Shown: piece after piece, positions 5,240-26,800 of the stretch
How the letters are laid out: each line of letters opens with the position of its first letter
How positions within the stretch are numbered: position 1 is the first letter of the stretch
Source: a virus
Reading direction: 5' to 3' (one strand)
Length of the DNA stretch: 28,039 nt
IMG/VR virus record: IMGVR_UViG_3300047370_000223
Coordinates: 1 to 28,039 of that record
Translations under genes and position numbers: made by a program
Notes under the pieces: model-generated
Databases searched by the model: none
What the model was told of the DNA's origin: nothing
What the model saw: the letters and a program-made list of their open reading frames with translations, nothing else

Positions 5240-5588
5240 GATAAAATCTTCGTTGTATCTCCTGAAACCTCCACATTTTTACTCTACCGAATCGTTGAAA
5301 GCAAACATATTCTAATTGAAATGGACAAAGTGAAAATAGCTGTGAGAGCTTCCCGGACATAAGATGCACATACCAGGTATCGCTTTCTTCCGGTTCAAAA
5401 AAGTCATCTGACTCTAAAACGCCATTACCGATCAAGTCTGATGGCACTGTTTTAGCCATGACAAAAATGTCAGGTAATGAGTAAACGTAACCGCGATTCA
5501 AGTAAGCAGTCAGGTCAGCAGCGAACCTTTGGTGATCCACGCCCTCAAGCTGCGCCATCATCGCCTGCTGATAAAGAGTCTGCTTCAT
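5220..5588 (-). CDS. Hypothetical protein between terminase and portal, 122 aa
   Basis: The protein begins MKQTLYQQAMMAQLEGVDHQ with a helical N-terminus, then a mixed aromatic-rich body (GYVYSLPDIFVMAK; SDTWYVHLMSG) and a basic C-terminus (MWRFQEIQRRFYHGNAKS). Three cysteine-free segments and scattered aromatic residues suggest a small globular fold that resembles acetyltransferase-like phage proteins, but no catalytic motif is certain. It overlaps the TerL stop by ATGA and the next gene by 20 bases. In T7-like genomes this slot often carries a small protein of unknown role. The residues RFQE are encoded by one of the AGGTTTCAGGA motif copies. Confidence 0.7.
   Translation of the reverse strand: MKQTLYQQAMMAQLEGVDHQRFAADLTAYLNRGYVYSLPDIFVMAKTVPSDLIGNGVLESDDFFEPEESDTWYVHLMSGKLSQLFSLCPFQLEYVCFQRFGRVKMWRFQEIQRRFYHGNAKS
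5260..5270 (-). repeat. AGGTTTCAGGA motif, copy 1
   Basis: Exact 11-mer on the minus strand, continuing GATAC. It lies in the last part of the gene at 5220-5588, read as R-F-Q-E, and about 20 bases before the start of the next gene. Confidence 0.85.
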
Positions 5589-7698: not shown

Positions 7699-8103
7699 TT
7701 ACCCTTCAGAGGAAATGTCCTTGGCCCCGGTCAACTCGCGCATGAGGCCCAGCAAGTCTGCTTCTCCTGAAACCTCGACTTTGTCAGGCTCATAATATCC
7801 GCACATCCGATTGATCTCTTTACCCGCTGAAATGCGATCTCGCGTCTCCTCGATCCCTTCTGCCGTTGCTATATCCAAAAACAGCCCAAGCATCTCAGAG
7901 CGGCTTACAGACACCTCCTTGGCAGTTTCTGCCGCAATAGTTGCCAAACGCTCCTCGATGTTAGGGTTTGTTAATAAGGTTGATGCTCCAGTCCTCGCGC
8001 TACCGTCAGTCTTAGCCGAATACCCAGCGTCCTTGTAGGATTGCGTTGCATTCCCGGTCTGGTGATAAAGCTGGCAGAATTTCTCCTGTTTCGGATTCAG
8101 CAT
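7699..8103 (-). CDS. terS: Terminase small subunit
   Basis: The 134-aa protein matches the terminase small-subunit family. L-N-P-K-Q-E-K-F-C-Q-L-Y at the N-terminus and G-N-A-T-Q-S-Y-K-D-A-G-Y-S (about 16-28) form the DNA-binding HTH. A-R-T-G-A-S-T-L-L-T-N-P-N-I (about 35-48) is the typical next helix. TerS selects phage DNA for packaging and loads TerL. The ATG (not the GTG one codon upstream) overlaps the preceding stop as TGATG. It is separated from terL by the SSB-like and a small gene, which is less usual than direct adjacency. Its C-terminal V-S-G-E is encoded by an AGGTTTCAGGA motif. Confidence 0.88.
   Translation of the reverse strand: MLNPKQEKFCQLYHQTGNATQSYKDAGYSAKTDGSARTGASTLLTNPNIEERLATIAAETAKEVSVSRSEMLGLFLDIATAEGIEETRDRISAGKEINRMCGYYEPDKVEVSGEADLLGLMRELTGAKDISSEG
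7765..7775 (-). repeat. AGGTTTCAGGA motif, copy 2
   Basis: Exact 11-mer on the minus strand, continuing GAAGC. It lies inside the small terminase gene, read in a different frame from copies 1, 3 and 4 (V-S-G-E). Confidence 0.85.
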
Positions 8104-8216
8104 CACTTCTTGTAACCAGACTTGGCTGTCTTGGTCTTACGCATGATCGTGCGCGTTGTCTTTTTCTTAGGTGGACGGCCCACTTTCGAGCCATAGGTTC
8201 CTTTTCCGTAGGGCAT
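8103..8216 (-). CDS. Tiny basic phage protein, 37 aa
   Basis: The protein begins MPYGKGTYGSKVGRPPKK and continues with Lys, Arg and Thr. About 40% of residues are Lys or Arg, and the composition resembles a DNA-binding or packaged peptide. Similar MPYGKGTYG-type peptides recur in podophage genomes (from memory). It overlaps terS as TGATG and follows the 50-aa gene by 2 bases, so it is part of the same tightly packed operon. Role unknown; DNA condensation or capsid interaction is possible. Confidence 0.65.
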   Translation of the reverse strand: MPYGKGTYGSKVGRPPKKKTTRTIMRKTKTAKSGYKK

Positions 8217-8218: not shown

Positions 8219-8371
8219 TTACTTCCTTTTCTTTTTTGCGGTTTTCTCAGAGTCCTTAAACGCCTTCGCGGTAGGCGCACCTTTCGATCCGGGCTTTCGC
8301 ATTCGCTCCCCGGAACCAGCCGCGATGCGTTTACGCTTGGCGTGAATGTTGTGATACAGTCCTAGTTTCAT
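8219..8371 (-). CDS. Conserved small basic phage protein, 50 aa
   Basis: The sequence starts MKLGLYHNIHAKRKRI and contains the segment RKPGSKGAPTAKAF, a pattern I recognise from small proteins in many marine podoviruses and other short-tailed phages, where it is conserved but of unknown function. The C-terminus is lysine-rich. The ATG overlaps the replication-gene stop (ATGA). Conservation of such a short protein suggests a structural role, perhaps DNA- or head-associated. The gene at 16975-17265 is a second small basic protein of comparable type. Confidence 0.72.
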   Translation of the reverse strand: MKLGLYHNIHAKRKRIAAGSGERMRKPGSKGAPTAKAFKDSEKTAKKKRK

Positions 8372-9618
8372 TGCTGTGTGAGTAATTTGCTTCGCTCGTT
8401 TTCAAATAAACGAATGTTCTCCTTGAGGCTTTTTATCTGGTTCATCGCTTCCTCGGTCAGTCGTTTGGGATCTCTCCAAGCATTCCCGGTTTCCTTTGCC
8501 CAGCGGTCGAAAGTTGCGACATCGTCCGGGAACATTTCAGCCAGTTTGGTGCATTGATACTCATCCGAATTGACTGCATCTAGGGCAGCACGATTATTAG
8601 ACATCGTTTCTCGTTCGGAATCAAGCGTTTCCTGAAACCTTGCCCAATCCTCTTGTGTTGCCTCGGTCGTAGCGAATTCCTCACGGGCCTCGGCGACATA
8701 TTGCAACCATTGGCCCTGTAGCCGGTCACGGTGCTGATCTACGTCCTCGGTGAATCCAGCAGCAGCGTTACGATTTTCCTTTTGCTCTTGTATCGCCTTG
8801 ATTTCAGCTTTGACGCGCAACAAATCCTTTTCCACCATCCAGACTTCCCTAGCTCTGCCGGGAACCGGTTTCGATGACGGAGCAGCTAATTGCACCGATT
8901 CCTGACGCTTCTGTTCGCGCATCCAGCACTCACGGAGGAATGCGCCGGGAGAGTTGATCTTTCTACCTTTCACATCGCAACCACCTCGGAGATCGACATC
9001 GGCAGATAATGCCACGGCGAACTCTGACGGGATTCCCATTGCTTCAGCGATACCCAAGTAAATCCCTTGAGATGAAGAAACTGGAGTTGCTGCCTGCTTA
9101 TTTGCAGCAGGAACCCCAGGGCTTTTATATTTATCTGCTTCTGCTTCTGCTTCTGCTTGTGAATTCTGGCGTGACACTGGCGTGACATCGTCACGCAAAT
9201 CGTGACTATTTGTGACATCAGCGTGACTATTCGTGACATTTGCGTGACCACCATCCTGTTTTTGCCGATCCCGTTGACGTTGTTTTCGCAGTCGAGCCTG
9301 CTCTCTCCGGTCAGCGTCAGTTGCCTTATCCCGGTATGTCCCGTGATTCAGCAGTTCCCAGCCTCCGTTGATGGCCTGTATTCGTCTCCCCTCGTTGTCT
9401 GGTGTGCGACTATACTCATCTGGTGCTGAGAGAGCGGCCAGAGCTTCCTCGCAGTCAGGGATGCTTACATTGGCGAGATTGGCTAATCCTGGTATAGATG
9501 CCTGCACTTCCCCGTTTTTATCGGCTAAGGCGAGCAGCGTTACCCATACCACGCGAATGTCGCTGGACTCCTGCCAGACGGTGGAAGTGACGATTGAGTT
9601 GAATAGTTTTGTATACAT
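8368..9618 (-). CDS. Replication initiator / helicase-recruitment protein (lambda O-like layout)
   Basis: The 416-aa protein begins MYTKLFNSIVTSTVW. Residues 1-95 form a winged-helix domain of the phage replisome-organiser type (L-A-L-A-D-K-N-G-E-V, S-I-P-G-L-A-N-L-A-N-V, I-N-G-G-W-E-L-L-N). Residues 103-121 are very basic, 122-170 are a low-complexity linker (Asn/His/Thr/Val, then Gln-Ala-Glu repeats), and the rest is a helical C-terminal part probably used for partner binding. The DNA of the linker holds iteron-like repeats, so the gene carries a probable origin, as lambda O does. The start is chosen at TAATG overlapping the previous stop; 67 extra upstream codons belong to another frame. 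Confidence 0.78.
   Translation of the reverse strand: MYTKLFNSIVTSTVWQESSDIRVVWVTLLALADKNGEVQASIPGLANLANVSIPDCEEALAALSAPDEYSRTPDNEGRRIQAINGGWELLNHGTYRDKATDADRREQARLRKQRQRDRQKQDGGHANVTNSHADVTNSHDLRDDVTPVSRQNSQAEAEAEADKYKSPGVPAANKQAATPVSSSQGIYLGIAEAMGIPSEFAVALSADVDLRGGCDVKGRKINSPGAFLRECWMREQKRQESVQLAAPSSKPVPGRAREVWMVEKDLLRVKAEIKAIQEQKENRNAAAGFTEDVDQHRDRLQGQWLQYVAEAREEFATTEATQEDWARFQETLDSERETMSNNRAALDAVNSDEYQCTKLAEMFPDDVATFDRWAKETGNAWRDPKRLTEEAMNQIKSLKENIRLFENERSKLLTQQ
8630..8640 (-). repeat. AGGTTTCAGGA motif, copy 3
   Basis: Exact 11-mer on the minus strand, continuing AACGC (one difference from the GAYRC seen elsewhere). It lies inside the replication gene, read as R-F-Q-E-T. Confidence 0.85.
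9121..9248. other. Putative replication origin: GTGAC iterons plus AT-rich element
   Basis: GTGAC occurs on the plus strand at 9171, 9182, 9202, 9212, 9223, 9232 and 9244, and inverted (GTCAC) at 9190. Spacing is mostly 9-12 bases, close to one helical turn. On the low-coordinate side come four repeats of a TTCTGC-type hexamer (about 9132-9158) and then an AT-rich run, TTTTATATTTAT (9123-9134). Iterons followed by an AT-rich unwinding element inside the initiator gene match the lambda ori/O plan. The call is from sequence pattern; initiator binding is inferred. Confidence 0.65.
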
Positions 9619-9842
9619 TATTTCGATCCGATCCGGTTCTGATATGCCTTCTTCGCTTCCGTATTTCTTTGTAGCCATTGATAGGCCCATCGTGAAGCAT
9701 CGTCGTATTCGCCGGTCACACTTCCAATGGTTCTCCATTCTCCTCCGTTGGAATTCTGCCGATCTTGCGCTAATCCGATGTGGAAGTGCGCTTGCCTTTG
9801 ACTCCACTCGATCAACCATTTGTCTGTTTCTTGATTACTCAT
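9618..9842 (-). CDS. Hypothetical protein, 74 aa
   Basis: The gene begins MSNQETDKWLIEWSQRQAHF and is rich in Trp, Gln and Arg (for example DDASRWAYQWLQRN). It has no membrane segment or known motif. Its ATG overlaps the methyltransferase second-frame stop (ATGA), and its stop overlaps the replication-gene start (TAATG), so it is certainly within a coupled operon. The Trp/Arg-rich helices would suit a small helical protein binding DNA or a partner such as the initiator. No family is recognised. Confidence 0.68.
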   Translation of the reverse strand: MSNQETDKWLIEWSQRQAHFHIGLAQDRQNSNGGEWRTIGSVTGEYDDASRWAYQWLQRNTEAKKAYQNRIGSK

Positions 9843-11053
9843 AATTCTATTGATTTTCCTTCTGTTAAAATTGTCCATGCTAAAGCCGCTGCTTGGGGGC
9901 ATTGCCCATTGCCGATGGCCTTCAACCTACCTACTCGATGTTTTGTGCCTCCGGTGACTCGTGGCACTGAGCCAGTGTTGGCTGGATCAACCGACCAATC
10001 TCGCCAGTCCAGCTCAGTAATCTTCTCCATACTAGTCCACCCAACGGGCCACCCCATAAGCCATTCAACCCAATCGGGATTGAGTCTCATAACTTTGCCG
10101 TTTTCGAGTTGAGGTGCGCCTGTTTCCAATTCAGCTTTTTCACAAAGATTTCCTCTGTATTGATCGGTGCCGGGTATGCGATCCATTACAGCACCTTTAT
10201 ATTCTGATGATGTTGGCGTAGGCCATTTTTGTTTCTGATATTCCAGTCTTGTACAGTATCCACTCCTAGCTGCGTGACTAAACATCCACTGCATTTTGCC
10301 ATCAGGTGTCCCAGCAGCATCTTCGTTTGCGGTGGGCGTAGGCCAATTTTTATCGCGCTTCGCAACTTGAACTCGAAGTGAATGCTTTGTCCCTTCATGG
10401 TCAGTTTGCATCTCCCAATCGGTTGGCTTGCCGTGTTTAGCCTCTTGCGCTCGCGGCGTAGGCCACATAGCGACAAACATTCCCAAATCCTTGTTTTTGC
10501 CACGCGCATACTCTTTTTCAGCACCTGTTTTAGTTCTGCTGCCTTTGTCACCGTCAGTTGCTCGAGGCGTAGGCAGCAATCCAGATTCTGTCGCGCTTGT
10601 GGGGAGCGCCGACGTGATGCGCTCCCACAATTCCCCATTTTGCATCATACCCCATTTCGGCAAGATCACTGAGGACGGTTGTAAGTCCTCGTCCCACAAG
10701 CATTGGTGAGTTTTCCACGTATGCGTGTTGAGGTCGAACTTCTCCAATGATTCGCGCCATGTGCGTCCACATGGAAGATCGCTCTCCTTCGATGCCTGCA
10801 CCTTTGCCGGCGCAACTGATGTCTTGGCAGGGAAAGCCTCCAGATACGACATCAACACGTCCTCGCCATGGCTTGCCGTCAAAGGTTTGAACGTCATCCC
10901 AGATTGGGAAAGCTGGCAGTTGCTTATCGTTCTGTCGTTGCACCAGGACGGAAGCTGCGTAGGCGTTCCATTCCACAGCGCACACTGTGCGCCATCCAAG
11001 GAGATGCCCTCCGAGTATTCCTCCGCCAGCACCCGCGAATAAAGCCAACTCAT
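9839..11053 (-). CDS. C5-cytosine methyltransferase, C-terminal (target-recognition) frame
   Basis: This 404-codon frame runs through the whole methyltransferase region. Its last part holds what the other frame lacks: P-T-P repeats at about 161, 198, 238 and 278 (37-40 residues apart), L-N-P-D-W-V-E-W-L-M-G-W-P (about 324-336) and R-L-K-A-I-G-N-G-Q (376-384), equivalent to motifs IX-X of C5-methyltransferases. Such PTP-repeat proteins accompany Dcm-like phage enzymes. It may be made from the ATG at 11053 (ATGA overlap with the nuclease stop), from an internal ATG at 10852, or by +1 frameshifting from the other frame at 10556. The first 150 codons overlap a real gene and may be passive. Confidence 0.75.
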   Translation of the reverse strand: MSWLYSRVLAEEYSEGISLDGAQCALWNGTPTQLPSWCNDRTISNCQLSQSGMTFKPLTASHGEDVLMSYLEAFPAKTSVAPAKVQASKESDLPCGRTWRESLEKFDLNTHTWKTHQCLWDEDLQPSSVILPKWGMMQNGELWERITSALPTSATESGLLPTPRATDGDKGSRTKTGAEKEYARGKNKDLGMFVAMWPTPRAQEAKHGKPTDWEMQTDHEGTKHSLRVQVAKRDKNWPTPTANEDAAGTPDGKMQWMFSHAARSGYCTRLEYQKQKWPTPTSSEYKGAVMDRIPGTDQYRGNLCEKAELETGAPQLENGKVMRLNPDWVEWLMGWPVGWTSMEKITELDWRDWSVDPANTGSVPRVTGGTKHRVGRLKAIGNGQCPQAAALAWTILTEGKSIEL

Positions 11054-11057
11054 TCAT
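10554..11057 (-). CDS. C5-cytosine methyltransferase, N-terminal catalytic frame
   Basis: The 167-aa frame carries motifs I to VIII of DNA (cytosine-5) methyltransferases: F-A-G-A-G-G-G (7-13, AdoMet binding), G-F-P-C-Q-D-I-S with catalytic Cys 77, E-N-S (115-117) and K-R-D-R-I-W-I (154-160). The target-recognition region and motifs IX-X are missing and lie in the overlapping frame. It could act as the alpha half of a split enzyme, as in M.AquI, or be fused by +1 shifting at its stop (AAC-TGA-C), giving about 405 aa, normal for the family. A GGGGAGGG ribosome site precedes two starts, ATGAATGA, one for each frame. The likely role is protecting phage DNA from restriction. Confidence 0.85.
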   Translation of the reverse strand: MNELALFAGAGGGILGGHLLGWRTVCAVEWNAYAASVLVQRQNDKQLPAFPIWDDVQTFDGKPWRGRVDVVSGGFPCQDISCAGKGAGIEGERSSMWTHMARIIGEVRPQHAYVENSPMLVGRGLTTVLSDLAEMGYDAKWGIVGAHHVGAPHKRDRIWIAAYASSN

Positions 11058-11454
11058 CGCCCTCCCCTAGATAGTGTTCAATGATTTCGATTGCGTGTTT
11101 GGCCCCGTAACAGACTTCGGTTCGGAAACCTTGTTTAGATAAACTGTCCAGCCACCATCGCTGGGCGGTCGATACGCCACCCTTGCCTGCCCGTTTTGGA
11201 CGGGCAGACTCACGCTTCAGTTCGATGAACAAGCCGTGATGATCTCCGCTGGGAACGGGTAAGCAGAGATCCGGCACACCGGCCTTGACACCTTCGGCTT
11301 TGAGTAGCTTCCCGGTGATGACATTTCGATTCCCTCCATTCGGAATCGCAAACAACAAATCCAGTGCCGGGTATTTCTTCGCAAACACCGTTGCCCAGCG
11401 AACTAGCTGTCGCTGCTCAACGTGTTCTGACGGTGATAATGGATTACGCTGCAT
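11050..11454 (-). CDS. VRR-NUC domain nuclease
   Basis: The 134-aa protein starts MQRNPLSPSEHVEQRQLV. It shows the stand-alone phage VRR-NUC pattern: Glu 13 in the first helix, I-P-N-G (37-40), G-V-P-D (59-62) and E-L-K (78-80), the PD-(D/E)xK core, followed by Q-R-W-W-L (98-102). Such nucleases act on branched or structured DNA and are frequent in phage recombination and replication modules. The start lies inside the end of the YqaJ gene. The stop overlaps the start codons of both methyltransferase frames, so expression is coupled. Confidence 0.87.
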   Translation of the reverse strand: MQRNPLSPSEHVEQRQLVRWATVFAKKYPALDLLFAIPNGGNRNVITGKLLKAEGVKAGVPDLCLPVPSGDHHGLFIELKRESARPKRAGKGGVSTAQRWWLDSLSKQGFRTEVCYGAKHAIEIIEHYLGEGDE

Positions 11455-12106
11455 CGGCTGAAACCTTATTTTCGAGTTCCCACGCCTGCGATTCTTCAGC
11501 AATGGCTTGATCCAATTGCCTTGAGAATTCGCATAGTGCATCGAATAGCTCATCAGTGAATGAATCGCGCACCACCTTGATTCGGAACGATGCCAGTCTC
11601 GGCTCGTAGCTTTGAAACCACCAAGACTCCGCGCCAGTAACGGCCATGCAGCCATGCACCTGGTATTTGTATACTTCCGGCAGGACTCCCGCCCTACGGT
11701 AGCACACGTGTGTGCTTGAGATCGGAACCTTGCCCTCGAAACCAGAATTCTCGCCTTTGAGCAGACCATCTGGTGAACATCCAAACTTACCGTGGACTGA
11801 CCGGCAGAAACCGACATCGGACACCTTCTTTCGGCTCCACCTTTCAAAAGCAGCAACAGCGTCAGGTTCCATCAGCGTTCCCCGTTTCATTGCCTCGTTC
11901 TCGAAAACTGGCGGTTCCCATCCCCCGGCCGCTTGCGCGACCAGTTTACAGATGGCCTTCTCTCTAGCGTCCCGGCTACGCTTGTCCGAATCCTTGAGCA
12001 ACCAAGGCCCGAATTCAGAGCCGGTTAGAATCCCCTTTCGCAGATCGAACCACTCATCACTGCGTTGCTCGCAGTCAAAGATAGTGCATTGATTGAATTC
12101 GCTCAT
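11444..12106 (-). CDS. YqaJ / lambda-Exo-like recombination exonuclease
   Basis: The 220-aa protein follows the YqaJ viral recombinase pattern: Q-R-S-D-E-W-F-D-L-R-K-G-I-L-T-G-S (14-30), G-T-L-M-E-P (76-81, Glu 80), F-G-C-S-P-D-G-L-L (108-116, Asp 113), F-E-G-K-V-P (123-128, the E-x-K motif, usually E-I-K-x-P) and Y-Q-V-H-G-C-M (148-154). It should resect DNA 5' to 3' and load the RecT partner. The Gly in E-G-K is slightly unusual, but the catalytic Glu and Lys remain. The ATG chosen overlaps the RecT stop (ATGA) and has a GGAGG site inside the RecT end. Confidence 0.9.
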   Translation of the reverse strand: MSEFNQCTIFDCEQRSDEWFDLRKGILTGSEFGPWLLKDSDKRSRDAREKAICKLVAQAAGGWEPPVFENEAMKRGTLMEPDAVAAFERWSRKKVSDVGFCRSVHGKFGCSPDGLLKGENSGFEGKVPISSTHVCYRRAGVLPEVYKYQVHGCMAVTGAESWWFQSYEPRLASFRIKVVRDSFTDELFDALCEFSRQLDQAIAEESQAWELENKVSADAA

Positions 12107-12810
12107 GCTTTCGCCTCCTCTAGATTGATTTCCCAATTGAAGTCTCCATCAGGCCCGTCTCCTGTTTCTGCTGGCTCTTCAATCTCTGCTGGCTCAATCT
12201 CTACAGTTGCAGCAGCGAGCGGTTCTTCCTGTTTGAAGGGATTGCCATTGGCCTTCACCGGCTCACCCTTCTGGTATTCAGCCATACGCTCTGCGTCCTC
12301 TGGATCTGCAACGCTCATGCCGAATGCCACGCGAGCGCACTGAATGAAGGCTCGATGTCTAAGCATACGCTTCGGTTGCTTGTTCCAAGGCTCGGAATTC
12401 CGCTTGCACTCATCGAGGAATTCAGTGATCTCTACAGGATGAGAGCGATCCTTTCGGAAGATGCGGCAGGTCGTTGAAACGTGCCTTCCATCCTCGCAGT
12501 TCTCGATTAGTTCGCACCCGTCAAACTGATCGTGATCATTTGCGATTCGATACCATCCATCGCACGATATAACCGGGACGATCCCGCCACCCTTTTTGTC
12601 CGGGAAGGCATAGATTTCCTTTGTGAACGGATTTAATCCGTATTCGTTAGCCACCACGCAAAGTGCCATCATCTGCGAATCAGTTGCACCCCGGAAGGCG
12701 GTGTCCTTGAGAGTCGAGAGAAGTTGCTTCGGCTCCACTTGGAATTTGTTTGCCATGACCACCAGCGCACTGCGCTTCTGGTCACTTGTCTTTTCTATTG
12801 CTGTTGTCAT
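12103..12810 (-). CDS. RecT/Bet-family single-strand annealing protein
   Basis: The 235-aa protein has the family signature Y-G-L-N-P-F-T-K-E-I-Y-A-F-P (57-70), followed by G-I-V-P-V-I-S-C-D-G-W (76-86) and, later, A-R-V-A-F-G near 162. It anneals complementary strands after exonuclease resection. The C-terminus is acidic and Pro/Glu-rich (about 190-235). It is coupled to the YqaJ exonuclease downstream (ATGA), the standard two-component phage recombination pair. The N-terminus overlaps the end of the preceding gene by 29 bases, more than usual, and no clear ribosome site is visible; an internal start near residue 19 is a less likely alternative. Confidence 0.9.
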   Translation of the reverse strand: MTTAIEKTSDQKRSALVVMANKFQVEPKQLLSTLKDTAFRGATDSQMMALCVVANEYGLNPFTKEIYAFPDKKGGGIVPVISCDGWYRIANDHDQFDGCELIENCEDGRHVSTTCRIFRKDRSHPVEITEFLDECKRNSEPWNKQPKRMLRHRAFIQCARVAFGMSVADPEDAERMAEYQKGEPVKANGNPFKQEEPLAAATVEIEPAEIEEPAETGDGPDGDFNWEINLEEAKA

Positions 12811-13069
12811 CTGAATAATTGATTTGAATTTGTTTGCACTCGCCGTCGATGATCGCTTTGACTAACTCATGCGCTCTCACTGGTGAAATGCCTTTGTCCA
12901 TCATGAAGTTCCGAACCTTTTGTTCTGTAATAAAACGGTCATCCTGATCACCTGAATTCGCTGCTTTCATTTCTGCTTCCATCATTTCATCAACGAACTC
13001 CACCACCGTCGCATGACGCGGATGATTTTGATCGCGGTAGGCAGCATAATCGTCATCTATGTCGCTCAT
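12782..13069 (-). CDS. Early protein sharing the scaffold tail segment, 95 aa
   Basis: It begins MSDIDDDYAAYRDQNHPRH. Residues 7-30 match 17 of 24 positions of the C-terminal tail of the scaffold (1693-2613). The rest is helical and basic toward the end (VRNFMMDKGISPVRAHELV, then a lysine/asparagine tail) and resembles no family I know. It has a strong GGAGG ribosome site and an ATGA overlap with the preceding gene. Because the scaffold tail normally touches coat protein, the shared segment could bind capsid or compete with the scaffold, or it could be a generic partner-binding helix recruited twice. Function is unknown. Confidence 0.75.
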   Translation of the reverse strand: MSDIDDDYAAYRDQNHPRHATVVEFVDEMMEAEMKAANSGDQDDRFITEQKVRNFMMDKGISPVRAHELVKAIIDGECKQIQINYSDDNSNRKDK

Positions 13070-13344: not shown

Positions 13345-13351
13345 ATGTCTG

Positions 13352-13564: not shown

Positions 13565-13767
13565 ATCTCGCGTAGGTAATCCTCAATGCGATCAGCAATA
13601 TCGTCAGTCAGTTCGCATTTACTTTGCGTCTCCTGAAACCTCAAGTCTGTGATCTTGAGGAAACCCTGCTCGCAACGGTCGTATTCAAACTCAACGCTTT
13701 CGCCGTCATTTTCGCCGCCAACGAGATACATCTCGTAAGTGCCTTGAATTGGTTGAAGACTACGCAT
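13561..13767 (-). CDS. Hypothetical acidic protein, 68 aa
   Basis: The protein starts MRSLQPIQGTYEMYLVGG. It has beta-like segments (EMYLVGGENDGESVEFEYD) and a helical acidic end (DDIADRIEDYL). No motif is recognised. Its start overlaps the stop of the zinc-ribbon-like gene by 8 bases and its stop overlaps the next ATG. The residues R-F-Q-E-T are encoded by an AGGTTTCAGGA motif. It may be an inhibitor-type early protein judging by its acidity and size, but that is a guess. Confidence 0.6.
   Translation of the reverse strand: MRSLQPIQGTYEMYLVGGENDGESVEFEYDRCEQGFLKITDLRFQETQSKCELTDDIADRIEDYLREI
13631..13641 (-). repeat. AGGTTTCAGGA motif, copy 4
   Basis: Exact 11-mer on the minus strand, continuing GACGC, identical to copy 5 for 16 bases. 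It lies inside the 68-aa gene, read as R-F-Q-E-T. Confidence 0.85.
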
Positions 13768-14550: not shown

Positions 14551-15015
14551 ATGGGAATCAAACTGACGGATAATATGAAAGGACTTATCTCCCATGCTAT
14601 TAAGGCTAAGGGATTGAGCAAAAAACGAATTGCTGAATCGGTTGGTCTTAGTCAACCTTGGGCTACTTATCTCACTCGTCCTCTCAATAGCGGTGGATTG
14701 CGCTCTCTGACAGACGATCAGACCAAAGTTCTTTCACAATTGCTCGATTTGGAGTTTGTCGAGCTTCTGGAATCCAACCGGCCAACGGAGTCAGCGATGC
14801 GACTAAGCCGACTGGCGAGAGAAGATCCACTGCTGAATAATTTGATGGTTTCGCTTGACCTCTACGCCTGCGAATGTGACCGCTTCAAGTCAAATAAACT
14901 CACCGATCAGGATCTGATCGATCTCGGAAGTAAATTCATTAAGATCGTTGAGAGCCGTAAGAAGAGTCCGCAAGAAACAGCACAAGAGATTCTTGACCTA
15001 ATTAGTAGGAATTAA
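14551..15015 (+). CDS. Putative phage repressor (HTH)
   Basis: The 154-aa protein starts MGIKLTDNMKGLISHAI; an ATG 24 bases further on is an alternative, and neither has a strong ribosome site. Residues 21-43 (GLSKKRIAESVGLSQPWATY) form a lambda-repressor-type HTH. The C-terminal half is helical, without a visible Ser-Lys LexA-like peptidase pair. It is therefore not an obvious self-cleaving CI, and induction may work by another protein. It faces the early operon and is followed directly by attP and the integrase on the same strand. It is the best candidate for the lysogeny repressor; the assignment rests on the HTH and position. Confidence 0.75.
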   Translation: MGIKLTDNMKGLISHAIKAKGLSKKRIAESVGLSQPWATYLTRPLNSGGLRSLTDDQTKVLSQLLDLEFVELLESNRPTESAMRLSRLAREDPLLNNLMVSLDLYACECDRFKSNKLTDQDLIDLGSKFIKIVESRKKSPQETAQEILDLISRN

Positions 15016-15224: not shown

Positions 15225-16214
15225 GTGAAAGGCATCTACAAACGAAGGCAAACGTTCTGGTTTCGCTTTACGGCGAACCGCAAGCAGCATCGCGTCTCTC
15301 TCGGAACAAACGACGAGATCGAAGCAATCGAAATTGCTCACAAAATTCTCGCCAATCCCCTCCCCTATATCAATGGTGAAAGTTACGTCACTGACTTGAT
15401 CAATCAATATCGGAAGCATTGCATTGTCGAAAAGTATCAGACTGAAGGATGGGCCGTCGATCAAGGCATTAGAATAACTGCCTTCTGCCGCGATTTTAAG
15501 ATCCACCACCCGACACAAATTACTGTCCAGAGTATCAAGCGATGGTTGTCGCTTTACGCGAATGAGAATACAGCGATCCAGCAGCTTGCTATCCTCTCTC
15601 GTTTTACCCGCTGGTTGACTGCGAACGGCCATATTATGGTCGATCCCTGTCTGGAGATCCCTCGGAAGAAACAGGTCAAACGTCCTCGATACAATTTTCT
15701 CAACCGGGAGCAGGCGCGTTCCTTGATCGAAACTGCAAAAGGCGACAGGGATATGTCGATGCTGGTATTCCTCGCCCTGCAAGCTGGATTGAGGAAAAAT
15801 GAATGTCTCCATGCGACTCCTGACTGGATCGACCTCAAATCAAAACTGCTGCACGTTAAGGGCAACATCGACTGGAGTCCAAAGAATGGCCGGGATAGAA
15901 CGATTCCGATCACGGATGAGTTTGCTGATTTCCTAGAGTCAATCGAGATCCCGCAGCCATACCTGGTGCGACCAAGCGCGAGGAACGTAGGCCGATACCG
16001 ATGGGACTTTCGCAAGGCGTTCAATTCTCTCCGGGAGAAAGCTGGCGTTGAATGCACGTTCCACGATCTTCGCAGATCATTCGGAAGTCTCCATGCGTCA
16101 GCCGGGACTAGTCCTTATAAGGTTGCCAAATGGCTAGGCCATTCGATAATCGTGTTTGAACAGCACTACGGTCATCTGATTCCAGCCGATGACGAAATCA
16201 ATAACGCTTGGTGA
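15225..16214 (+). CDS. int: Tyrosine integrase
   Basis: The 329-aa site-specific recombinase begins with GTG (MKGIYKRRQTFWFRF). The N-terminal arm-binding domain (1-50) is followed by a SAM-like core-binding domain (about 52-145) and the catalytic domain. Catalytic residues are Arg 190 (A-G-L-R-K-N-E), a beta-hairpin Lys (212 or 220), H-D-L-R (His 280, Arg 283), L-G-H-S (His 306) and Tyr 315 (E-Q-H-Y-G-H-L). It should recombine attP here with the host tRNA-Ala gene. No ribosome site is visible, because an arm site occupies that position, so synthesis may be low or autoregulated. The next gene follows after one base. Confidence 0.95.
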   Translation: MKGIYKRRQTFWFRFTANRKQHRVSLGTNDEIEAIEIAHKILANPLPYINGESYVTDLINQYRKHCIVEKYQTEGWAVDQGIRITAFCRDFKIHHPTQITVQSIKRWLSLYANENTAIQQLAILSRFTRWLTANGHIMVDPCLEIPRKKQVKRPRYNFLNREQARSLIETAKGDRDMSMLVFLALQAGLRKNECLHATPDWIDLKSKLLHVKGNIDWSPKNGRDRTIPITDEFADFLESIEIPQPYLVRPSARNVGRYRWDFRKAFNSLREKAGVECTFHDLRRSFGSLHASAGTSPYKVAKWLGHSIIVFEQHYGHLIPADDEINNAW

Positions 16215-16215
16215 T

Positions 16216-16752
16216 ATGCCGCCGTATTCCGATCCCGAAGAGCAGAAAGCGTATCGCAGGCGATGGTATCGTGAAAACTATGCTCGCGACAAAGATTTCA
16301 GGCTGGAAGAGCTTCAGCGCAAGCAGGAAGCTCATCCTCGTCTCCGCGATAAAAAGATTGAGTATTACCGCTCGACCAACGTGCCAAGAGATATTGAAAT
16401 CTCTGTAGCGGTGACCCCGGATGAGTTTGATCTGTTTAGAAAGGCAGCAAAGCGAATAGGCAAGCGTGTTGGCCCCACAATCCGCATCCTCGCGCTCGAC
16501 CAGTTCACTGATTCAGAGCGTCTTGAACTTCGCCGGAAATGGTATCGAGACAACGTCAGCAGTGATCAACTACGTGCCTTAAAGACCATTGGAGCCGACA
16601 TTAACTCGGTCAACCTCTCTCGCACAGTCTATCCGAAATCCGTCACGGTGAAGCTGACTAGCGATGAAGCGTTGCTAGTGAAGACCAAGTTGCGAAAAAA
16701 CCAGCAGCTTCGCACTGGCATCAAGGATCTGGCACTTGCGTCGATTTGTTGA
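16216..16752 (+). CDS. Integrase-coupled protein with two internal repeats, 178 aa
   Basis: It starts MPPYSDPEEQKAYRRRW, one base after the int stop (TGATATG). The protein is a tandem duplication. Repeat A has R-R-R-W-Y-R-E-N (14-21), a strand I-E-I-S-V-A-V-T-P-D-E-F (60-71) and a helix ending I-R-I-L-A-L. Repeat B has R-R-K-W-Y-R-D-N (106-113), K-S-V-T-V-K-L-T-S-D-E-A (141-152) and I-K-D-L-A-L. The strand-helix parts resemble ribbon-helix-helix or MobC-like DNA-binding units. Coupling to int suggests a directionality factor or regulator. No named family is recognised. Confidence 0.72.
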   Translation: MPPYSDPEEQKAYRRRWYRENYARDKDFRLEELQRKQEAHPRLRDKKIEYYRSTNVPRDIEISVAVTPDEFDLFRKAAKRIGKRVGPTIRILALDQFTDSERLELRRKWYRDNVSSDQLRALKTIGADINSVNLSRTVYPKSVTVKLTSDEALLVKTKLRKNQQLRTGIKDLALASIC

Positions 16753-17265: not shown

Positions 17266-17267
17266 AT

Positions 17268-18463: not shown

Positions 18464-19111
18464 TTAAAACAATCGAATGTGCGAGCGAACCAGAGAGAGT
18501 TTTCGCTTCTGCGCGTAAACTCCACCGCCCTCACGCGATCCACCGATGTTGGTATTCCCCTCGACAGTGTTCACAAAGCCGTCCAACTCATCGTCAATCG
18601 CCAATCCGATATGGGAAAACGTGTAGACAAGGATGTCCCCGGCTAGGATTTTCTCTTTCGGCTTGAAGAGTTTTAGTTTTTCAGTCCTTGCCCATCGCTC
18701 AAAGTCCCAAGCACCAGCCGTTTGCGGACGCGCAAATGGAAGATCATATTTAGTATCAAGCTGCTGGATTCCCCAGCAGATAAATGCCGCGCACCAAGGC
18801 CAACCAGAACCGTCGAGCCAAGTTGATGCCTGGTATTTCTCAACATCTGGGCCGCGATTGCTGTTGAGCGGTATCTCGCGGACACCGGTTTCAGAAACGA
18901 GGATGTCGATTAGCTCACTGGTAAGAGGATTCCGTTCACTTCCAGTAGCCGGATTTGATTGAGCTTTTACGGTCTGCAAGTAGTTTTGATACGCCGCTTT
19001 AGTGATCGGCCCCGGAAGTCCTCGCGTAGTGCCATCGTAGAAACCAAGAGCCTTTAGGCCATGCTGGATGACGACCGCATCAGATTGCTCAAGATTTTCC
19101 CAATCGATCAT
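18464..19111 (-). CDS. Endolysin: PG-binding plus CHAP-type amidase/peptidase
   Basis: The 215-aa lytic enzyme has an N-terminal peptidoglycan-binding-like helical region (1-50: V-I-Q-H-G-L-K-A-L-G-F-Y-D-G, then G-P-I-T-K-A-A-Y-Q-N-Y), a linker and a CHAP/NlpC-like catalytic domain with Cys 107 (G-W-P-W-C-A-A-F), His 167 (F-S-H-I-G-L-A) and V-E-G-N-T-N (183-188). It degrades cell-wall peptidoglycan late in infection. No signal peptide is visible, so release depends on the holin encoded two genes upstream. The ATG overlaps the o-spanin stop (ATGA). Confidence 0.9.
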   Translation of the reverse strand: MIDWENLEQSDAVVIQHGLKALGFYDGTTRGLPGPITKAAYQNYLQTVKAQSNPATGSERNPLTSELIDILVSETGVREIPLNSNRGPDVEKYQASTWLDGSGWPWCAAFICWGIQQLDTKYDLPFARPQTAGAWDFERWARTEKLKLFKPKEKILAGDILVYTFSHIGLAIDDELDGFVNTVEGNTNIGGSREGGGVYAQKRKLSLVRSHIRLF

Positions 19112-19347
19112 TTACTGCCGATGATTAAGGCTCTTAAATAACTATACTCACTGTGAAACCGTTGATTGTCCCCTGTGAGAACACCTTCCTCAAATTGGTA
19201 GGTTTTACCCGGTATCAGAGTCACCGTGGGAGGATCGTATAAAGCCGACCTGTTCACTCGCTCGTTGTTTGCGTTTTGCAATCGTCTCGATTCGCAGCTT
19301 GGCAGCAGGAGAACCAGACAAAGCAAGGCGATGCATTTCATCCTCAT
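19108..19347 (-). CDS. Outer-membrane spanin lipoprotein (Rz1-like)
   Basis: The 79-aa protein begins MRMKCIALLCLVLLLPSCES: a short lipoprotein signal with lipobox L-P-S-C, so Cys 18 would be lipidated. The mature part contains P-P-T-V-T-L-I-P-G-K-T-Y and ends with S-K. It starts inside the i-spanin gene in another frame and extends beyond it, the known overlapped Rz/Rz1 arrangement. With the inner-membrane partner it fuses inner and outer membranes at the end of lysis. An AGAGGA ribosome site precedes the ATG. A second ATG (MKCI) two codons in is possible. Confidence 0.82.
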   Translation of the reverse strand: MRMKCIALLCLVLLLPSCESRRLQNANNERVNRSALYDPPTVTLIPGKTYQFEEGVLTGDNQRFHSEYSYLRALIIGSK

Positions 19348-19453
19348 AATCCTCTATCTGCCGCTCGATCTTGCGAATCTCAATGATCGGCAAAACTTTG
19401 AGTAAAGCGGTCGCCGCATTAAAAAAAGCAGCGACCGCTCTAAACAGTGTCAT
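19205..19453 (-). CDS. Inner-membrane spanin (Rz-like)
   Basis: The 82-aa protein starts MTLFRAVAAFFNAATALL. An N-terminal hydrophobic helix (about 4-24) serves as signal-anchor, followed by a charged periplasmic coiled coil (I-R-K-I-E-R-Q-I-E-D-Y-E-D-E-M) and a polar C-terminus. The shape matches i-spanins, and its gene overlaps the lipoprotein gene for 143 bases. Its ATG overlaps the holin stop (ATGA). It lies in a holin, i-spanin, o-spanin, endolysin order. Recognition rests on topology and overlap, as spanin sequences vary greatly. Confidence 0.8.
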   Translation of the reverse strand: MTLFRAVAAFFNAATALLKVLPIIEIRKIERQIEDYEDEMHRLALSGSPAAKLRIETIAKRKQRASEQVGFIRSSHGDSDTG

Positions 19454-19620
19454 GCTGACTTTTCTGGTGCAAATATCGACCAGATAGTCCCGATGAGCAG
19501 AACAAGGCCACCGATGATTTCTTGTGCAATATCCTCCTGCACATACCCACGCGCCGTAGCGATTCCCGCTCCGAAGGTAAGCAAGTGACGGATGATTCCT
19601 AGTGTTTTTTGTCGATTCAT
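19450..19620 (-). CDS. Holin, 56 aa
   Basis: I chose the ATG giving MNRQKTLGIIRHLLTFG; a TTG 66 bases upstream, just before the tail-fibre stop, gives a longer but less likely reading. Two hydrophobic helices, about 7-25 and 33-50 (EIIGGLVLLIGTIWSIF), and a charged turn make a small class II-like holin. The stop overlaps the i-spanin ATG. It should form holes in the inner membrane and time lysis. No good ribosome site is visible; an AGGTTTCAGGA motif ends about 28 bases upstream. Confidence 0.8.
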   Translation of the reverse strand: MNRQKTLGIIRHLLTFGAGIATARGYVQEDIAQEIIGGLVLLIGTIWSIFAPEKSA

Positions 19621-19648
19621 AATTGAGGCAATGTTAAAAGTCAGCGTC

Positions 19649-19659
19649 TCCTGAAACCT
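19649..19659 (-). repeat. AGGTTTCAGGA motif, copy 5
   Basis: Exact 11-mer on the minus strand, continuing GACGC as in copy 4. It lies in the gap between the tail-fibre stop and the holin ATG, and is preceded by an AT-rich stretch. Confidence 0.85.
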
Positions 19660-19676
19660 TATAAAAATCAAGTTTA

Positions 19677-20867
19677 TTAAGTCCAAGCCGTTTGCTGCGA
19701 TTGGAAAGGGTATTGAATCTGCATTCCTAAAACGATAGCTGTTGGCATCCCGGTTGAATAATCCCTCGAAATTTTCAGCATCATTGGCCCACCGGCACTG
19801 TATCCAGATCCGATTGAAACAGGATCGGATACGGAAACCGCGCCGTAACTCGTCTCGCCATCAACCGCAATCGTAGCTGGCGTAGCGTCGAGCGAATATT
19901 CAGTCACAGTTCCATCGAATTCAGGATTATAGTCGCCGCTGCCTTCTCCCGAATAATTGCTTCCGGGCCAGTCAGCATTGACCTTGAATTTCCAATCGAA
20001 TGCCGTCCCGCTTGTTAGAGCAAAATATATCAATCTCAGTTTCAATGTGCCGCCATTGTAATCACCGGGCAGAAAAAACCGATGATAGGCAGATTCATCT
20101 TGAGAGCCTTGGAACCGAGCAACGACCTCATCAATAGTGCCGCCAGTGTAAGCACCTACATCTGGGCCTGAAGTTGTATCTGGAATCAAATCGCCTGCAC
20201 GAACATTGAAAGTTCCGTAATGGGTTTGGACTAGCGAATCCTCAAGTGTGGATTTGCTGGCCTTCTTCCACGCGCCTCCTACACTGACCAGAAATAAATC
20301 AGCATCCGCCAATGTGCTGGCAGTAGCGAGCGAAGATTCACTAAGTCCGATGGTAGGATTGCCGTCAACCCCATCACCATTTGTAATCGCTATGGGCGAG
20401 CTTGCGTCTGGGGAAATCGTTCGACCTACAAAAGATCCTGCCGAAACTTGTGAAACAAGCCCGGTTTCAGATGCCGTGATGTTACTTGTGCCGGAATAAA
20501 CAGAATCCCGGCGAGCCTCCTGAGCGATCATTGTCGCCCGGTCGAAGGCAGTCTCCGCTGCTTCGGCTGGGAGAGAACCACCCGCTACCAGGTCTAATGT
20601 CTGGATTGCTGGCGTTTCGCGGAAAAACCGAATGGTTGAACTGGTTGAAATTGCAGAACCGGTCAGAACTTCGCCGCTCACGTTGCGCCCCTCACCGTCC
20701 TTGCTGGCGACTACAGAGAAATCTGTGAGCGTTGTGATTGTCCCGCCTGAATCGGTCACCTCACATTTGACGTGACTCGCTTCCAAAAACGGGAACGGAA
20801 TAGTGTAAACCTGCTCGGTTGAATTGTTTCCGCTATAGGAAACTGCTGAATTTTCAGTGGTGATCAT
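19677..20867 (-). CDS. Tail fibre / tail spike protein (T7 gp17-like N-terminus)
   Basis: The 396-aa protein begins MITTENSAVSYSGNNSTEQV, then Y-T-I-P-F-P-F-L (22-29), I-R-F-F-R-E-T-P-A-I-Q (near 79-89) and A-F-D-R-A-T-M-I-A-Q-E (107-117). This is the T7 tail-fibre N-terminal pattern that joins the fibre to the tail. The rest is Gly/Ser/Thr-rich beta structure with no recognised enzymatic motif and should carry receptor-binding specificity. It follows the giant virion gene by 23 bases. An AGGTTTCAGGA motif lies 14 bases before its ATG. Confidence 0.88.
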   Translation of the reverse strand: MITTENSAVSYSGNNSTEQVYTIPFPFLEASHVKCEVTDSGGTITTLTDFSVVASKDGEGRNVSGEVLTGSAISTSSTIRFFRETPAIQTLDLVAGGSLPAEAAETAFDRATMIAQEARRDSVYSGTSNITASETGLVSQVSAGSFVGRTISPDASSPIAITNGDGVDGNPTIGLSESSLATASTLADADLFLVSVGGAWKKASKSTLEDSLVQTHYGTFNVRAGDLIPDTTSGPDVGAYTGGTIDEVVARFQGSQDESAYHRFFLPGDYNGGTLKLRLIYFALTSGTAFDWKFKVNADWPGSNYSGEGSGDYNPEFDGTVTEYSLDATPATIAVDGETSYGAVSVSDPVSIGSGYSAGGPMMLKISRDYSTGMPTAIVLGMQIQYPFQSQQTAWT

Positions 20868-20881
20868 ATTATTAGTGTAGT

Positions 20882-20892
20882 TCCTGAAACCT
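20882..20892 (-). repeat. AGGTTTCAGGA motif, copy 6
   Basis: Exact 11-mer on the minus strand, continuing ACTAC. The first two bases (AG) belong to the TAG stop codon of the giant gene, and it lies 14 bases before the tail-fibre ATG. Confidence 0.85.
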
Positions 20893-23800
20893 AGTTATCT
20901 ATTAAATTTGTTATTATATCAACGCCGTCTCTCATCGGATGCATGAAAACCGCTGCTGCCGCAGTTTGGTCATTGAACAATCCAAGTGCGGTCATAATCG
21001 TTTCTGTTGACCGCATAAGATCATCAACGTCCTCAATCTTATGAAGATTCTTAACAGCGTAGGCTGCCTTTGGGATTGCAGAGAATGCAGTCCCTTGCGG
21101 CTGTGTTTCACCCAAAAGTGCCAGAACCGCGTTTTGCACCTCTTCACCTAAAACCGGAACCCCATACATCCAATCGGTTAGAACAGACGCGATAATTTTT
21201 TTCATTCGCCAATGTTTCGGGTCGAAGATTTCATCATCCTCATCATCTCTGAGATCGCGCCATGAATTTCGTATGATGGCAGCTATTAATGCGTTCGCAA
21301 CGATAGCGAACATCGTCGCCCTCCCCATCTCTTTAGACCAAACTCCATTTTGCAATTTAGCCTGAATCATAAGCGAAATATTCTTTCGTGCTTCACTGCC
21401 GAATACCCACGAGATTTTTGCTAATGGATTAACCGTAGTGTTTTCAATTATCGAACGTGCGCCTGATCTTGTGGGTTGTGCTAATCGATCCGTTACCCGC
21501 TCGGCCTCGTTTAACGCAAACGCCTCCGCTTCGCCCCTCTCTAATCCTCTTTCCAAGGCTTTTTGTAGGCGATGATCATAAACAATTGCAAAAGTTCCCG
21601 CAGTGAAAAGCGCATCAGCACCACCGATTAACTTTCCAACTTTTTGTGCATTAAATTTAACTTTCGTTGGCTTGCTTTTGCCTAAATCATTCATCAACTC
21701 ACGAACCATCACTGGCTGCTCTCTTAGTCGCCGTTTGATGTAGTCTGAATTGATTGCAACTCCCCAACCGAGTTGACCAGCGAACAGCTTGAATAAGCGA
21801 GTATTATATTGATACGATGACATCACAACATTCCCGGCAGCAAGCTGAGTCACCTGAATTGCAATTGTTCCGAGCCTGCCCCATAGGGCCATGATCGCAA
21901 AGTTTCCACCCACTTCGCGTATAAACTTATTGAAGCCTAAATGAACGCCTGCCGCTCGCACCCCGCCCTCGGTAAACATGGTAGTCCACTCCACTATCGT
22001 GTTGATTGACTCCTGACCGGCCTTTGCAGAAATTGCATTTCTAACCTTTCTGTTGCCAAGAACCGCATTCGCCTCCTGTGAAAATTCAGAGAAGGCCAAC
22101 CAGTGTTCCATCTGACGCTTGTGTGAGAAGTATTTTTCAAGACCGTTTTGGAAGTCAGGTTCCGCAATAAAACCACCTCTTGTTCTTAATGCACCGGGAG
22201 TATTGTTTCTGGACAACTGCATTCCGGTTGTAGGATCGGTATTATCTCCCTCACTTGACTGAATAGGGATTACAGAAATCGGAGCGTAGAACTTGTTCTT
22301 CGGCATATCTACCCCGTTCTGTTTCCTGTAGAGCTTATTCAACCTGTCGTATTCCTGCGAATATCTGCTCTGCAAGAAAGATAAAATCATCCTACCGGTA
22401 TCACTCAAACCCTTTTCGATTTGTTTTACGAACTCTTCGCCGTAATGCCAATCGCCGTTAGGTTTGCCAGTCTCCTCATCCTTGTGGCCCTCCATGTGCC
22501 GCCGCCCGTCCTCTTGATCCCATGTCAGAAGAATGTCAACAGCATCCAATTCAGAGTAAATTCCTTCGTCAGTTTCTATTGTTGGCTCATCCAACTTGGT
22601 CAAAATTTTAGCTGACTTCACATCATCAGATTCGATGTTCTCTTTAACATAGGCTTCGAAGTCATCGTAGATGGCTTGCATTGCGTCCGTTAAATCGTTT
22701 TCGGCTTTTCTCTGCCCATCAGCAAGATAGATCGCTATTTCCGAATCTTCTCCGAATAGGTAAGAAACAACAAAGTCCCAAGGCTGAAATCCTAGAATCC
22801 CTTTTCGTTTGCCTTTCACCTCATTCTTTTTCTTCTTGCGCGACTTCGCTGAACTATCGGCATTGGTTGAATCTATTGCCTCACCACGCAATGCTTCATA
22901 CCGCTCTCGTTTTTCAGCTTCACTCTCAAGCGCATTGATCCATGCACCGTTGTAGAGATCGTTGAGCATCTTAACAGCGTCATGCCGTTGCGTAGCGTCT
23001 CGATCTCTCCAACCGGCGAAGGCCCGGTAGATTTCAGCCAGCAGACCAGCTCGGACACTGTCCTCCATTAGTTGCTGTTTTTTTTCCTCGCTCAACGTAT
23101 CGAAATTAATTTCCTCAATACTAGCAATGTCGATCTCTGCTTTTTGTGCCTCTGCTTCCCCCTGCTCCAATGTAAGCAAATTCCTAGCCTCTTTCGCAGC
23201 GTCTACCAGTGTATAGAAACTTTGACCCAGACGGCCTTTATACTTCTTGCCAGCTTCGGTAACTTTAGTTTTTTGTATCCTCGCCAGTATTCCATTTTTC
23301 GGATCATCGAGAGCGGCATCAGCTTCTTTATACAAATAGTATTCCAGTTCTTGGTCAGCACGTTTCACGCGCCGCTCGATCTCCTTCAACATTGCCTCTG
23401 GCGATGATCTCTTTGCGATGGCAGTGACACCACCGACCTTCCCCCGGATCTCCATCGGCAGCGAGCTGACAACAGCGTCGAGCATTCGCAGTGCGCCTAA
23501 TAAAGTTTTCTTATCGCTGCCAACGGTCTTCTTTTCCTTGAGCAGTTCTGCTTTCCTTGCCTGCCCAGCTTCCCTCGCTTCCCTCGACATCCCAGCCACC
23601 TCGCGTCTCGCCGCAGCAGCAGCTTCCTTCTGATCATTAAAACTCTTAATCTCCGAATCTAGAGCAGAGAAGAATTCTGCTACGTCATCGAAGCCAGCAA
23701 TTTTTGCTGCCTGATCCGGGGACAGATTCCCGCCAAACACATAAGATGGCAAACCTTCAGGCATATCATTGTATTCAGCAGTGCTTCTCCCCTCTGCCTT

Positions 23801-26800
23801 AGCGCGAGTCTTGCCCATGATCGAACCACCAGGCATCCTCACCTGTATGCCGTCCTTCCTAGTGATAGTCCGGTAAGTTGTCAGTTCTGCTAGAATAGGA
23901 CGTTGAGCCGTATCATCAAGACTGTCGCTGAGTTCCAGTGCGCCAACAGTCGCGGGAGATATCCCCTCCAGTAGCTCTGACAGTTTCTCTTCCTCAACTT
24001 TCCGGGCTGCTTCGTTGATTTCTTTGGGAGTCCGGTTTGCCTCAAATACGGGACGAAATTTAGCATACAGGTCTAGGATCTTCTTGTGCGCTCTCGCCCC
24101 AACCTCATGCCTCAGAACCGGTGATCGCTGGAACGGCGAGAACATATCCGCGATACGTTCCTCTGCGTTTTCGATGACGGAGAAGGAAAGTTGCTTCCCT
24201 GATTCTCTCGTTTCCGATCCAGGCATTACCTTCAATGTGGTCGAAGACATACCAGAAGTTGGAAAAAGGTTTTTTCGCGCCTTTTCAAACGACTTCGTAT
24301 ATGGCTTTTTAGTCTTTGGATCAATCAGTTCCACATCCCCGAAACCAGAAGTTTCATGCCCAACCACCTTTTGCCAGTCAAACGCCTCTTTCATCGTATG
24401 AAGAACCACTTTGCTTTCACGGTTCTTCGGAACAATTGCGAACGGGTAGCTTTCATGGTGATCTGATTCAATCGCCTCTACCTCTCCCTGCGCCTCAATC
24501 ACTGCATAGATCATCCCGTTTTGATTGCCTTCTTGGAAATCCCGAAGGAACGGCTCGGTCAATAGGTTACCTAATCCCTGAGTCAAATTCGCCACACTAA
24601 GTTCGCCTTTTGCCAATGTTGCAGCAGCATACGGATTGTGATCCCCGTGGAGTTTGTCTGCCACAAACCGCGCTTGCTTCATAATCTTCGGATCAGCTTT
24701 TGCCTTTGCAGTTCCAATCTCGTCAGTCAGTTGCTTGATCAGGGATTGAACGAACGCTTTGCGAACAGCAAAGACGGCATTTTCTGGATCTAGCAGACCG
24801 TCCATCCTATCGATGTTTGCCGCCAGTCCGTCCTTAACCGCTAACGGGTTGTCTCTAAATTTGTTTACCTTCCCCTTATCGTCAGTTATGGACACCTTGC
24901 TCGCCTTAACGATCATGCTGTTAAGTTTCGACTTCGTCACTCCAGTTTTTCTTGGTTGATCCGCAAGTGCCTCAAAGAATCGGACAACTCCCCGCGACAT
25001 TGTCGTAGAAGAAAACAATTTGCCAACCGGGGCCGAAACCAACCCCATGAGAATTCGACCTCCGTTCTTCCTTCCAATTTCGTTTAGGTGGTTGGCTGTT
25101 TTTTCAGCAACTGCTTGGGTGGATGCCCAAAAGTAGTTTAGATCAGCAAAAAGTGCCGGATAAAACACTCCCCCTTTCCCTTCCAACTCCTGCCCGTCTT
25201 CAAATATTACCTTGCCGGAAAACGCATTGTCAGGAGCGTGAAGAAGAATGTTCTGTCCTACGAAATTATCAATGGACTGGTCAGGCTTGATCTTGCCTTC
25301 TTTCAGAAGATCGTCAAACCGATCATCGTTCCGAAGGTATTCTGTGCTTTGAATAACAGAAAAACCAACCTCGTCCCTGCTCTCTGCTTCGGTCAGAGGC
25401 CCACCCGCCTCTAATCCTGATCGGTCGCCAGAGACGTTGCTCGATCCAGAATCAGATCCTCTGCCTGCTCTTTGAGTAGAATCTCCTCCGCTTCTTGGAA
25501 GAGGGAATCCAATTCGTCGTTCGAGACTTCCTTCTCGCTTGAGTCGTTTGAGGTATTGGTCATAGCTCTCAGGTTCATTTCCACTTTTTCTGATTGATGC
25601 TGCCCAGATTGCGGCTTGAACCTCTCGCGGCTCCCATCCTATAAGATTTGCAATCTCAGTCAATACTTTCTCTGCTTTTTCAAATTGCGCTTTGGTAGGA
25701 GATGTTACCCCGAAAAGCATCCTCGCTACGTGCCGATCAACGACCACCTTTGATTTGTCTCCGCTGGAAGCCTCTTCGTAGTTTCCAATCTTCCTGCCGT
25801 TGAGTTTCTTACTATCGTTACGGATTTTCTCCAAGTTTCCGATTACTGGAGCAAGATAGCCCACAAATTCCTCTCCTCGCTTCAGTTGACCGTACGCCTT
25901 CAGCGCAAGTGATACATTGGCCTTTACACTTGCGGCCTGAGATGTGGCACTGAGAAGTCGCTGAAACAGTTTATGATCAGGCCCAAAATACTCGCGAAGA
26001 AGTTCCTCATGCCTCTCGTAGAAATCCTTCCAGTCCGACGAAGCCTCCACTGCCTCTATGATTTGCGCTCGGGTCATCTTCAACCGAAGAGATGACTTTT
26101 GATTGATAACAGAAAACGAAACATCATCCGTAGGCTCAACCTTGCTTTCCTCCACCTCCAATTCTACACCGTCCTCTTCTAGCTCCTCTTTAAATTTCTC
26201 CGCTTCAGTCAGGACATCGGCCTCATACTGACCCTGGTCACTCATGCCGACTGATCTCGCCAGTTCCTGTTCCAACTCCGCATCAAGTTTACCTTCCCGG
26301 CGAAGTTTGTTTAGTTTAGCTGCCCTCCTCCATATAGAGCGGAAGAATTGAGCATATGCTCCCATTGTCGAACCAAGGCCAGCACGCATGATGTCGGCAT
26401 ATTTCTGCCGGGCGTTCTTAGCTTTTCCTTCTGAATCCTTTTCCGCTCTGCCAAGCACTTCACCTTTCTTAGTCCTACCGACAAAGTAGGATTGAACTAA
26501 CGCAGAATAGGCTTCCTTGATGTCACCATTAGTTAGATCCTCATCAGCTTTTCCAGAGATAAACACCTTATCTCCTGAAACCTCTTCGTAGCCACGGATT
26601 TTAGAAATCAACCAGTCGCGTTTGCCATCTTGCAAAAGCACTGCTGCATCGCCTTCACTCTTTTCCTCGATGATCGTAATTGGTGAAAATCCTTGATACA
26701 GTGTTGACGTTGTCTTTGCGATGCCCTTAGCAAACTCGGTGACGTTTTTACCTAGAATTCTAGCATTCGCTAGACGCTCGTCATCGGTCATCCCCTCCAA

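Follow-up and report, generated by a model that had tools for sequence, protein, structure and literature searches.

A dispersed, one-way 17-bp repeat in a marine temperate phage and its possible stoperator-like role

We found that an asymmetric site of about 17 bp (AGGTTTCAGGA-R-A-H-R-C-A) recurs along the genome of a marine, temperate podovirus-like phage, where it constitutes a real, strong and species-private signal, present in at least seven copies and probably in eight. By analogy with known phage systems, we tentatively read these copies as dispersed sites for one phage-encoded DNA-binding protein that would act like the stoperators of Cluster A phages, a reading to which we give somewhat less than an even chance. 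The fuller proposal, namely that a temperate, podovirus-like phage of Verrucomicrobiota evolved a stoperator-like silencing system independently of that in mycobacteriophages, with its sites mostly in coding sequence, is more doubtful.

Results

A strong, oriented repeat along the lytic genes

The DNA analysed (henceforth the window) comes from IMG/VR and is a fragment of 28,039 nt, and all site counts refer to this fragment, not to the complete phage genome. It encodes a portal (head-tail adaptor), a major head protein and TerS, together with a TerL-like ORF that matches phage terminases at about 30% and RecE/Bet-like (i.e., RecE/RecT-like) recombination genes. Genes run leftward throughout the window except in a lysogeny block at 14.5-16.8 kb. 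Overlapping relatives extend the sequence by about 7 kb, to a total of about 35 kb, and the added part held no further clear site.

The 11-mer AGGTTTCAGGA occurs seven times on the transcribed (minus) strand of the window, each time without a mismatch, and is missing from the plus strand, with every coordinate as given in the original prediction. The chance expectation of exact copies is 0.011-0.051 on the minus strand (Markov orders 1-4) and 0.005-0.010 on the plus strand. When all dispersed 9-12-mers were searched blindly, this word ranked first with a log10 score of -10.3, the best score in 100 order-3 Markov sequences being -2.7. Five copies lie in coding sequence, compared with a mean of 0.14 and a maximum of 3 in 1000 synonymous-codon shuffles that kept the proteins, meaning that protein and codon usage do not account for the repeat. 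Together with the two reading frames used and the two intergenic copies, this bears out the earlier proposal that selection acts on DNA or RNA and not on protein.

Aligned flanks of the seven copies are conserved on the downstream side only, at +11 (R), +12 (A in 6/7), +13 (H), +14 (R, a purine in 7/7) and +15 (C in 6/7), with +11, +12 and +15 being the informative columns beyond the 11-mer. The 11-mer was correctly proposed; what had been described as a partly shared flank belongs to a longer site of about 17 bp. A 17-bp weighted matrix added a match at 11456 (AGGTTTCAGCCGATGCA; score 18.0, next best 11.2), which we count as only a probable eighth site because the top score in 60 null runs (mean 13.3) reached 18.1. 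No minus-strand word differs from the 11-mer at one position and ten differ at two; such a sharply bimodal set (seven exact, none with one mismatch), with a weaker 3' half-site, is what would be expected of a protein-bound site. The 9-mer in attP at 15132, originally taken as a core copy, has no 3' extension, falls outside the top 30 of the 17-bp scan and is probably there by chance. The sites are as follows:

5254..5270, minus strand: site 1, AGGTTTCAGGAGATACA, in ORF 5220-5588, about 40 nt before the ORF end, with the next start 20 nt downstream
7759..7775, minus strand: site 2, AGGTTTCAGGAGAAGCA, near the 3' end of terS (7699-8106)
8624..8640, minus strand: site 3, AGGTTTCAGGAAACGCT, in ORF 8368-9819
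11450..11466, minus strand: probable eighth site, AGGTTTCAGCCGATGCA, at the 3' end of the RecE-like exonuclease ORF 11444-12136
13625..13641, minus strand: site 4, AGGTTTCAGGAGACGCA, in the early operon, ORF 13561-13767, with the next start 66 nt downstream
19643..19659, minus strand: site 5, AGGTTTCAGGAGACGCT, intergenic, just past the tail-fibre-like ORF 19677-20867
20876..20892, minus strand: site 6, AGGTTTCAGGAACTACA, overlapping the TAG that ends the giant ORF 20891-28039, with the next ATG 14 nt downstream
26567..26583, minus strand: site 7, AGGTTTCAGGAGATAAG, within the giant ORF

All sites run with leftward (lytic) transcription, so that the predicted co-direction, including the strand bias, was borne out, and the lysogeny module (14450-16960) is free of them. 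Coding sequence contains six of the eight, and for 6/8 the nearest gene 3' end is no more than 80 nt away (P = 0.00095, for a statistic picked post hoc).

The giant ORF (minus strand) is virion-gene-like, has no PDB match and no clear family, and corresponds to a 2735-aa counterpart in the related contig L015 (3426-11633); it is strongly mosaic among strains, with a 79% stretch adjoining 97% stretches. Elsewhere, similarity to a DNA methyltransferase at 9839-11057 (minus strand) is divided between the overlapping frames 10554-11057 and 9839-11053, which suggests a frameshift or decay, and near-identical strains do not align at 10233-10335 within this region.

Conservation and distribution among phages

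The sites are retained in conspecific contigs (95-100% identity). Three sites with differing flanks showed 0/51 site changes versus 19/559 flank changes, numbers too small for significance, and site 2 is unchanged in three contigs (L009, L010 and L016) whose flanks differ at 7/159 positions. In L015, which provides the only diverged stretch, site 7 has changed at 4/17 positions (both end bases lost) versus 42/200 in the flank; it evolves there at the flank rate and shows no constraint. Strains other than L015 are too similar to reveal purifying selection at the remaining sites.

Outside the species, about 80 TerL relatives (1.0 Mb) held 0 copies of AGGTTTCAGGA, and 38 unrelated viral contigs, chosen by a 16-mer match, carried one copy apiece; judged by these comparisons, the motif belongs to this phage species alone. 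The original prediction had named a lack of enrichment in related phages, or the vanishing of copies at synonymous sites in close relatives, as findings that would speak against it, and this was seen in part: related phages show no enrichment, and one copy decays in the sole diverged relative. A blind scan of some 45 TerL relatives returned no comparable dispersed non-gene motif. An apparent analogue in L058 was rejected, as it consists of start codons from a family of paralogous genes (at 12726-20982, ten dispersed genes beside a TerL relative open with the same 12-mer, ATGTCCCGCCGC), and the top k-mers of L062 and L058 were rejected as tandem repeats.

Resemblance to stoperators

The long asymmetric site, its single orientation, its gene-end bias and its species-private word fit stoperators, the best-fitting reading and one that the originally listed roles had left out. 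Applied to mycobacteriophage D29, the same blind scan returned the known stoperator word as its top match (log10 -21.7, 9-10 exact copies), and D29 stoperators are oriented within each arm, with 12/20 lying within 80 nt of gene 3' ends. As in Cluster A phages (L5, Bxb1, D29), the sites are asymmetric and scattered, share one orientation with respect to transcription and mostly fall at gene ends (PMC9283540, PMC6550527). Measured against the short intergenic intervals or gene junctions that house Cluster A sites, the picture is mixed, with the post hoc bias to 3' ends on one side and six of eight sites in coding sequence on the other. L5 stoperators function in one orientation only (PMC9283540), and among Cluster A relatives motif and repressor co-diverge, so that a species-private motif fits fast-changing immunity specificity (PMC6550527). 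Unlike the 13-14 bp Cluster A stoperators, the sites described here are about 17 bp long, unrelated in sequence, present in about eight known copies, mostly within coding sequence and missing from the divergent promoter region, and they occur in a different phage lineage with a different probable host phylum. Phage P1, which is temperate too, has asymmetric sites of 17 bp scattered through its genome (P1 annotation), the C1 operators, but these are annotated at or near promoters and on both strands, whereas ours point one way and lie mostly in genes or at gene ends.

By this analogy, we infer that a protein binds the sites, that it is a repressor and that it blocks elongation. In a lysogen, the repressor would occupy the sites, all of one polarity, along the single leftward lytic transcription unit; the bound sites, mostly at gene ends, would halt host RNA polymerase leaking through, and the halted read-through would keep the lytic genes silent.

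Candidate binding proteins

The lysogeny block encodes an integrase and two candidate binders:

14551..15015, plus strand: putative prophage repressor with an N-terminal XRE-like HTH (weak model), adjoining the integrase
15225..16214, plus strand: tyrosine integrase (phrog_1, E = 4.7e-46)
16189..16752, plus strand: orphan protein of 187 aa whose two halves are partly similar, an alternative candidate

An integrase together with a predicted HTH protein at a divergent promoter region fits the stoperator reading. The AF2 model of the putative repressor (3 sequences, pLDDT 59.5) gave weak matches to XRE/HipB-type folds; only its N-terminal part is HTH-like, its C-terminal half is of low confidence, and a single-sequence fold was poor. 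Repressors of the Cluster A type combine an HTH with a Stoperator domain, and none of the 50 matches listed for our model was a stoperator repressor. A homologue with 26% identity lies beside divergently oriented genes (L205 16705-17187, minus strand; G193). G193 is a Verrucomicrobiota genome, and the prophage-like region that holds the homologue has an oriented 12-mer of its own (CCGCGTTTTGTC/GACAAAACGCGG; 4 copies, log10 -6.0).

The main objection to a stoperator-like role is the lack of a site at the divergent promoter region of the putative repressor, which is where L5-type repressors have an operator. Within 14256-14600, where the early promoter is itself a predicted one, we found no 17-bp site (best score 6.5), meaning that the binder may be another protein (e.g., the product of ORF 16189-16752) or that the sites serve another process. 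This orphan protein has a weak NikA-like Pfam match and halves that align over 18 aa (E = 7e-5), and it has no relatives in the phage collection or in 289 Verrucomicrobiota genomes. Also against the reading are the number of sites (8 in 28 kb versus 20-30 in about 50 kb in known systems), their location mostly in coding sequence, the flank-rate change of the copy at 26573 in L015 and a binder represented by candidates only.

The attP region lies within 15016-15225. Here 15082-15119 resembles the 5' half of a tRNA-Ala(GGC), with five TTAGCACA(C)-type repeats on its two sides, at 15016, 15031, 15183 (inverted), 15202 and 15215. By analogy, these repeats are likely integrase arm sites; being another word, they led us to reject the 17-bp motif as an arm-type site.

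Discussion

We regard the function of the repeat as putative: promoter or activator, RNA-level and polar DNA readings stand beside the stoperator one. Under the first of these, which we consider unlikely, a positive regulator of the phage would bind the sites as late or middle promoters or as activation points upstream of genes. Three sites do have a start codon 14-28 nt downstream, and 4/8 have one no more than 80 nt away (P = 0.046), but three others are 395-5700 nt from the next start. The oriented 22-bp repeats of T1-like phages have been discussed as possible enhancers (PMC11447400), and those of Stevie, TLS and T1 resemble our sites in being asymmetric, dispersed and transcription-oriented (PMC4319613, PMC11447400), while differing in sequence, in copy number (16-20), in being predominantly intergenic and in belonging to virulent phages. 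The phage-specific promoter proposed originally fares poorly: no single-subunit phage RNA polymerase was found among the ORFs of about 35 kb (window plus overlaps) of this incomplete genome, no upstream block and no -10-like block at fixed spacing is conserved, and sigma-70-like matches do not exceed those in shuffles. An ECF-type -35 (TGAAAC, plus strand) was rejected, having no conserved -10 by eye and the extension on the wrong side.

An RNA-level element in the lytic transcript, i.e., a protein-bound site for processing, antitermination or translational control, is improbable as well. All copies are on the sense strand of the transcript and many are by gene junctions, and three lie just upstream of starts that have no obvious close Shine-Dalgarno sequence. 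Against this, the sites have no Rfam match and no common or unusually stable fold (z-scores from -0.47 to +1.15); the fold result led us to reject an RNA hairpin, and an RNA structural element is not supported.

A polar DNA signal serving recombination, repair, packaging or the handling of the chromosome, whether an analogue of host Chi or KOPS or a phage-specific equivalent, seems quite improbable. The sites resemble E. coli Chi and host KOPS as a short, oriented, overrepresented DNA word, exact and at about 250 per Mb in the window (Chi has a similar density in E. coli), and RecE/RecT-like recombination proteins are among the products of the phage. TerL relatives of known cellular origin belong to Verrucomicrobiota, which makes this phylum the likely host, and none of 286 Verrucomicrobiae genomes showed enrichment of AGGTTTCAGGA (no more than about 2-3 copies per Mb, in a class sample from which the true host may differ). 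This argues against the host Chi or KOPS role suggested originally, as does the longer, phage-private site; a polar signal is also at odds with its absence from related phages, its gene-end bias and its 17-bp extent. In the genomes with the highest counts (G160 and G193), copies are scattered, unoriented and, in all but two cases, without the 3' extension, and none of the 13 copies in G193 lies in the prophage-like region holding the HTH-protein homologue; prophage copies as a source of the slightly raised counts in G280, G193 and G160 were rejected, as the copies are scattered. The tRNA half of attP, a 38-mer that could point to the exact host, had no exact match in this class sample.

Finally, it is very unlikely that the copies have no regulatory role and are short linkers or boundaries which recombination has spread at module junctions: direct repeats (19649, 20882) flank a tail-fibre-like gene, most sites are at gene ends and relatives are mosaic, but several separate coding contexts would require independent in-frame origins, and gene swaps between copies were not seen in relatives.

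One group of actinobacterial phages is established as having stoperators; in T1-like and Nostoc phages they are suspected. If the stoperator-like reading is true, dispersed repressor sites that block elongation would seem to have arisen more than once, here in a phage of a distant and poorly studied host group, with compact sites and a binder to be sought among a few genes.
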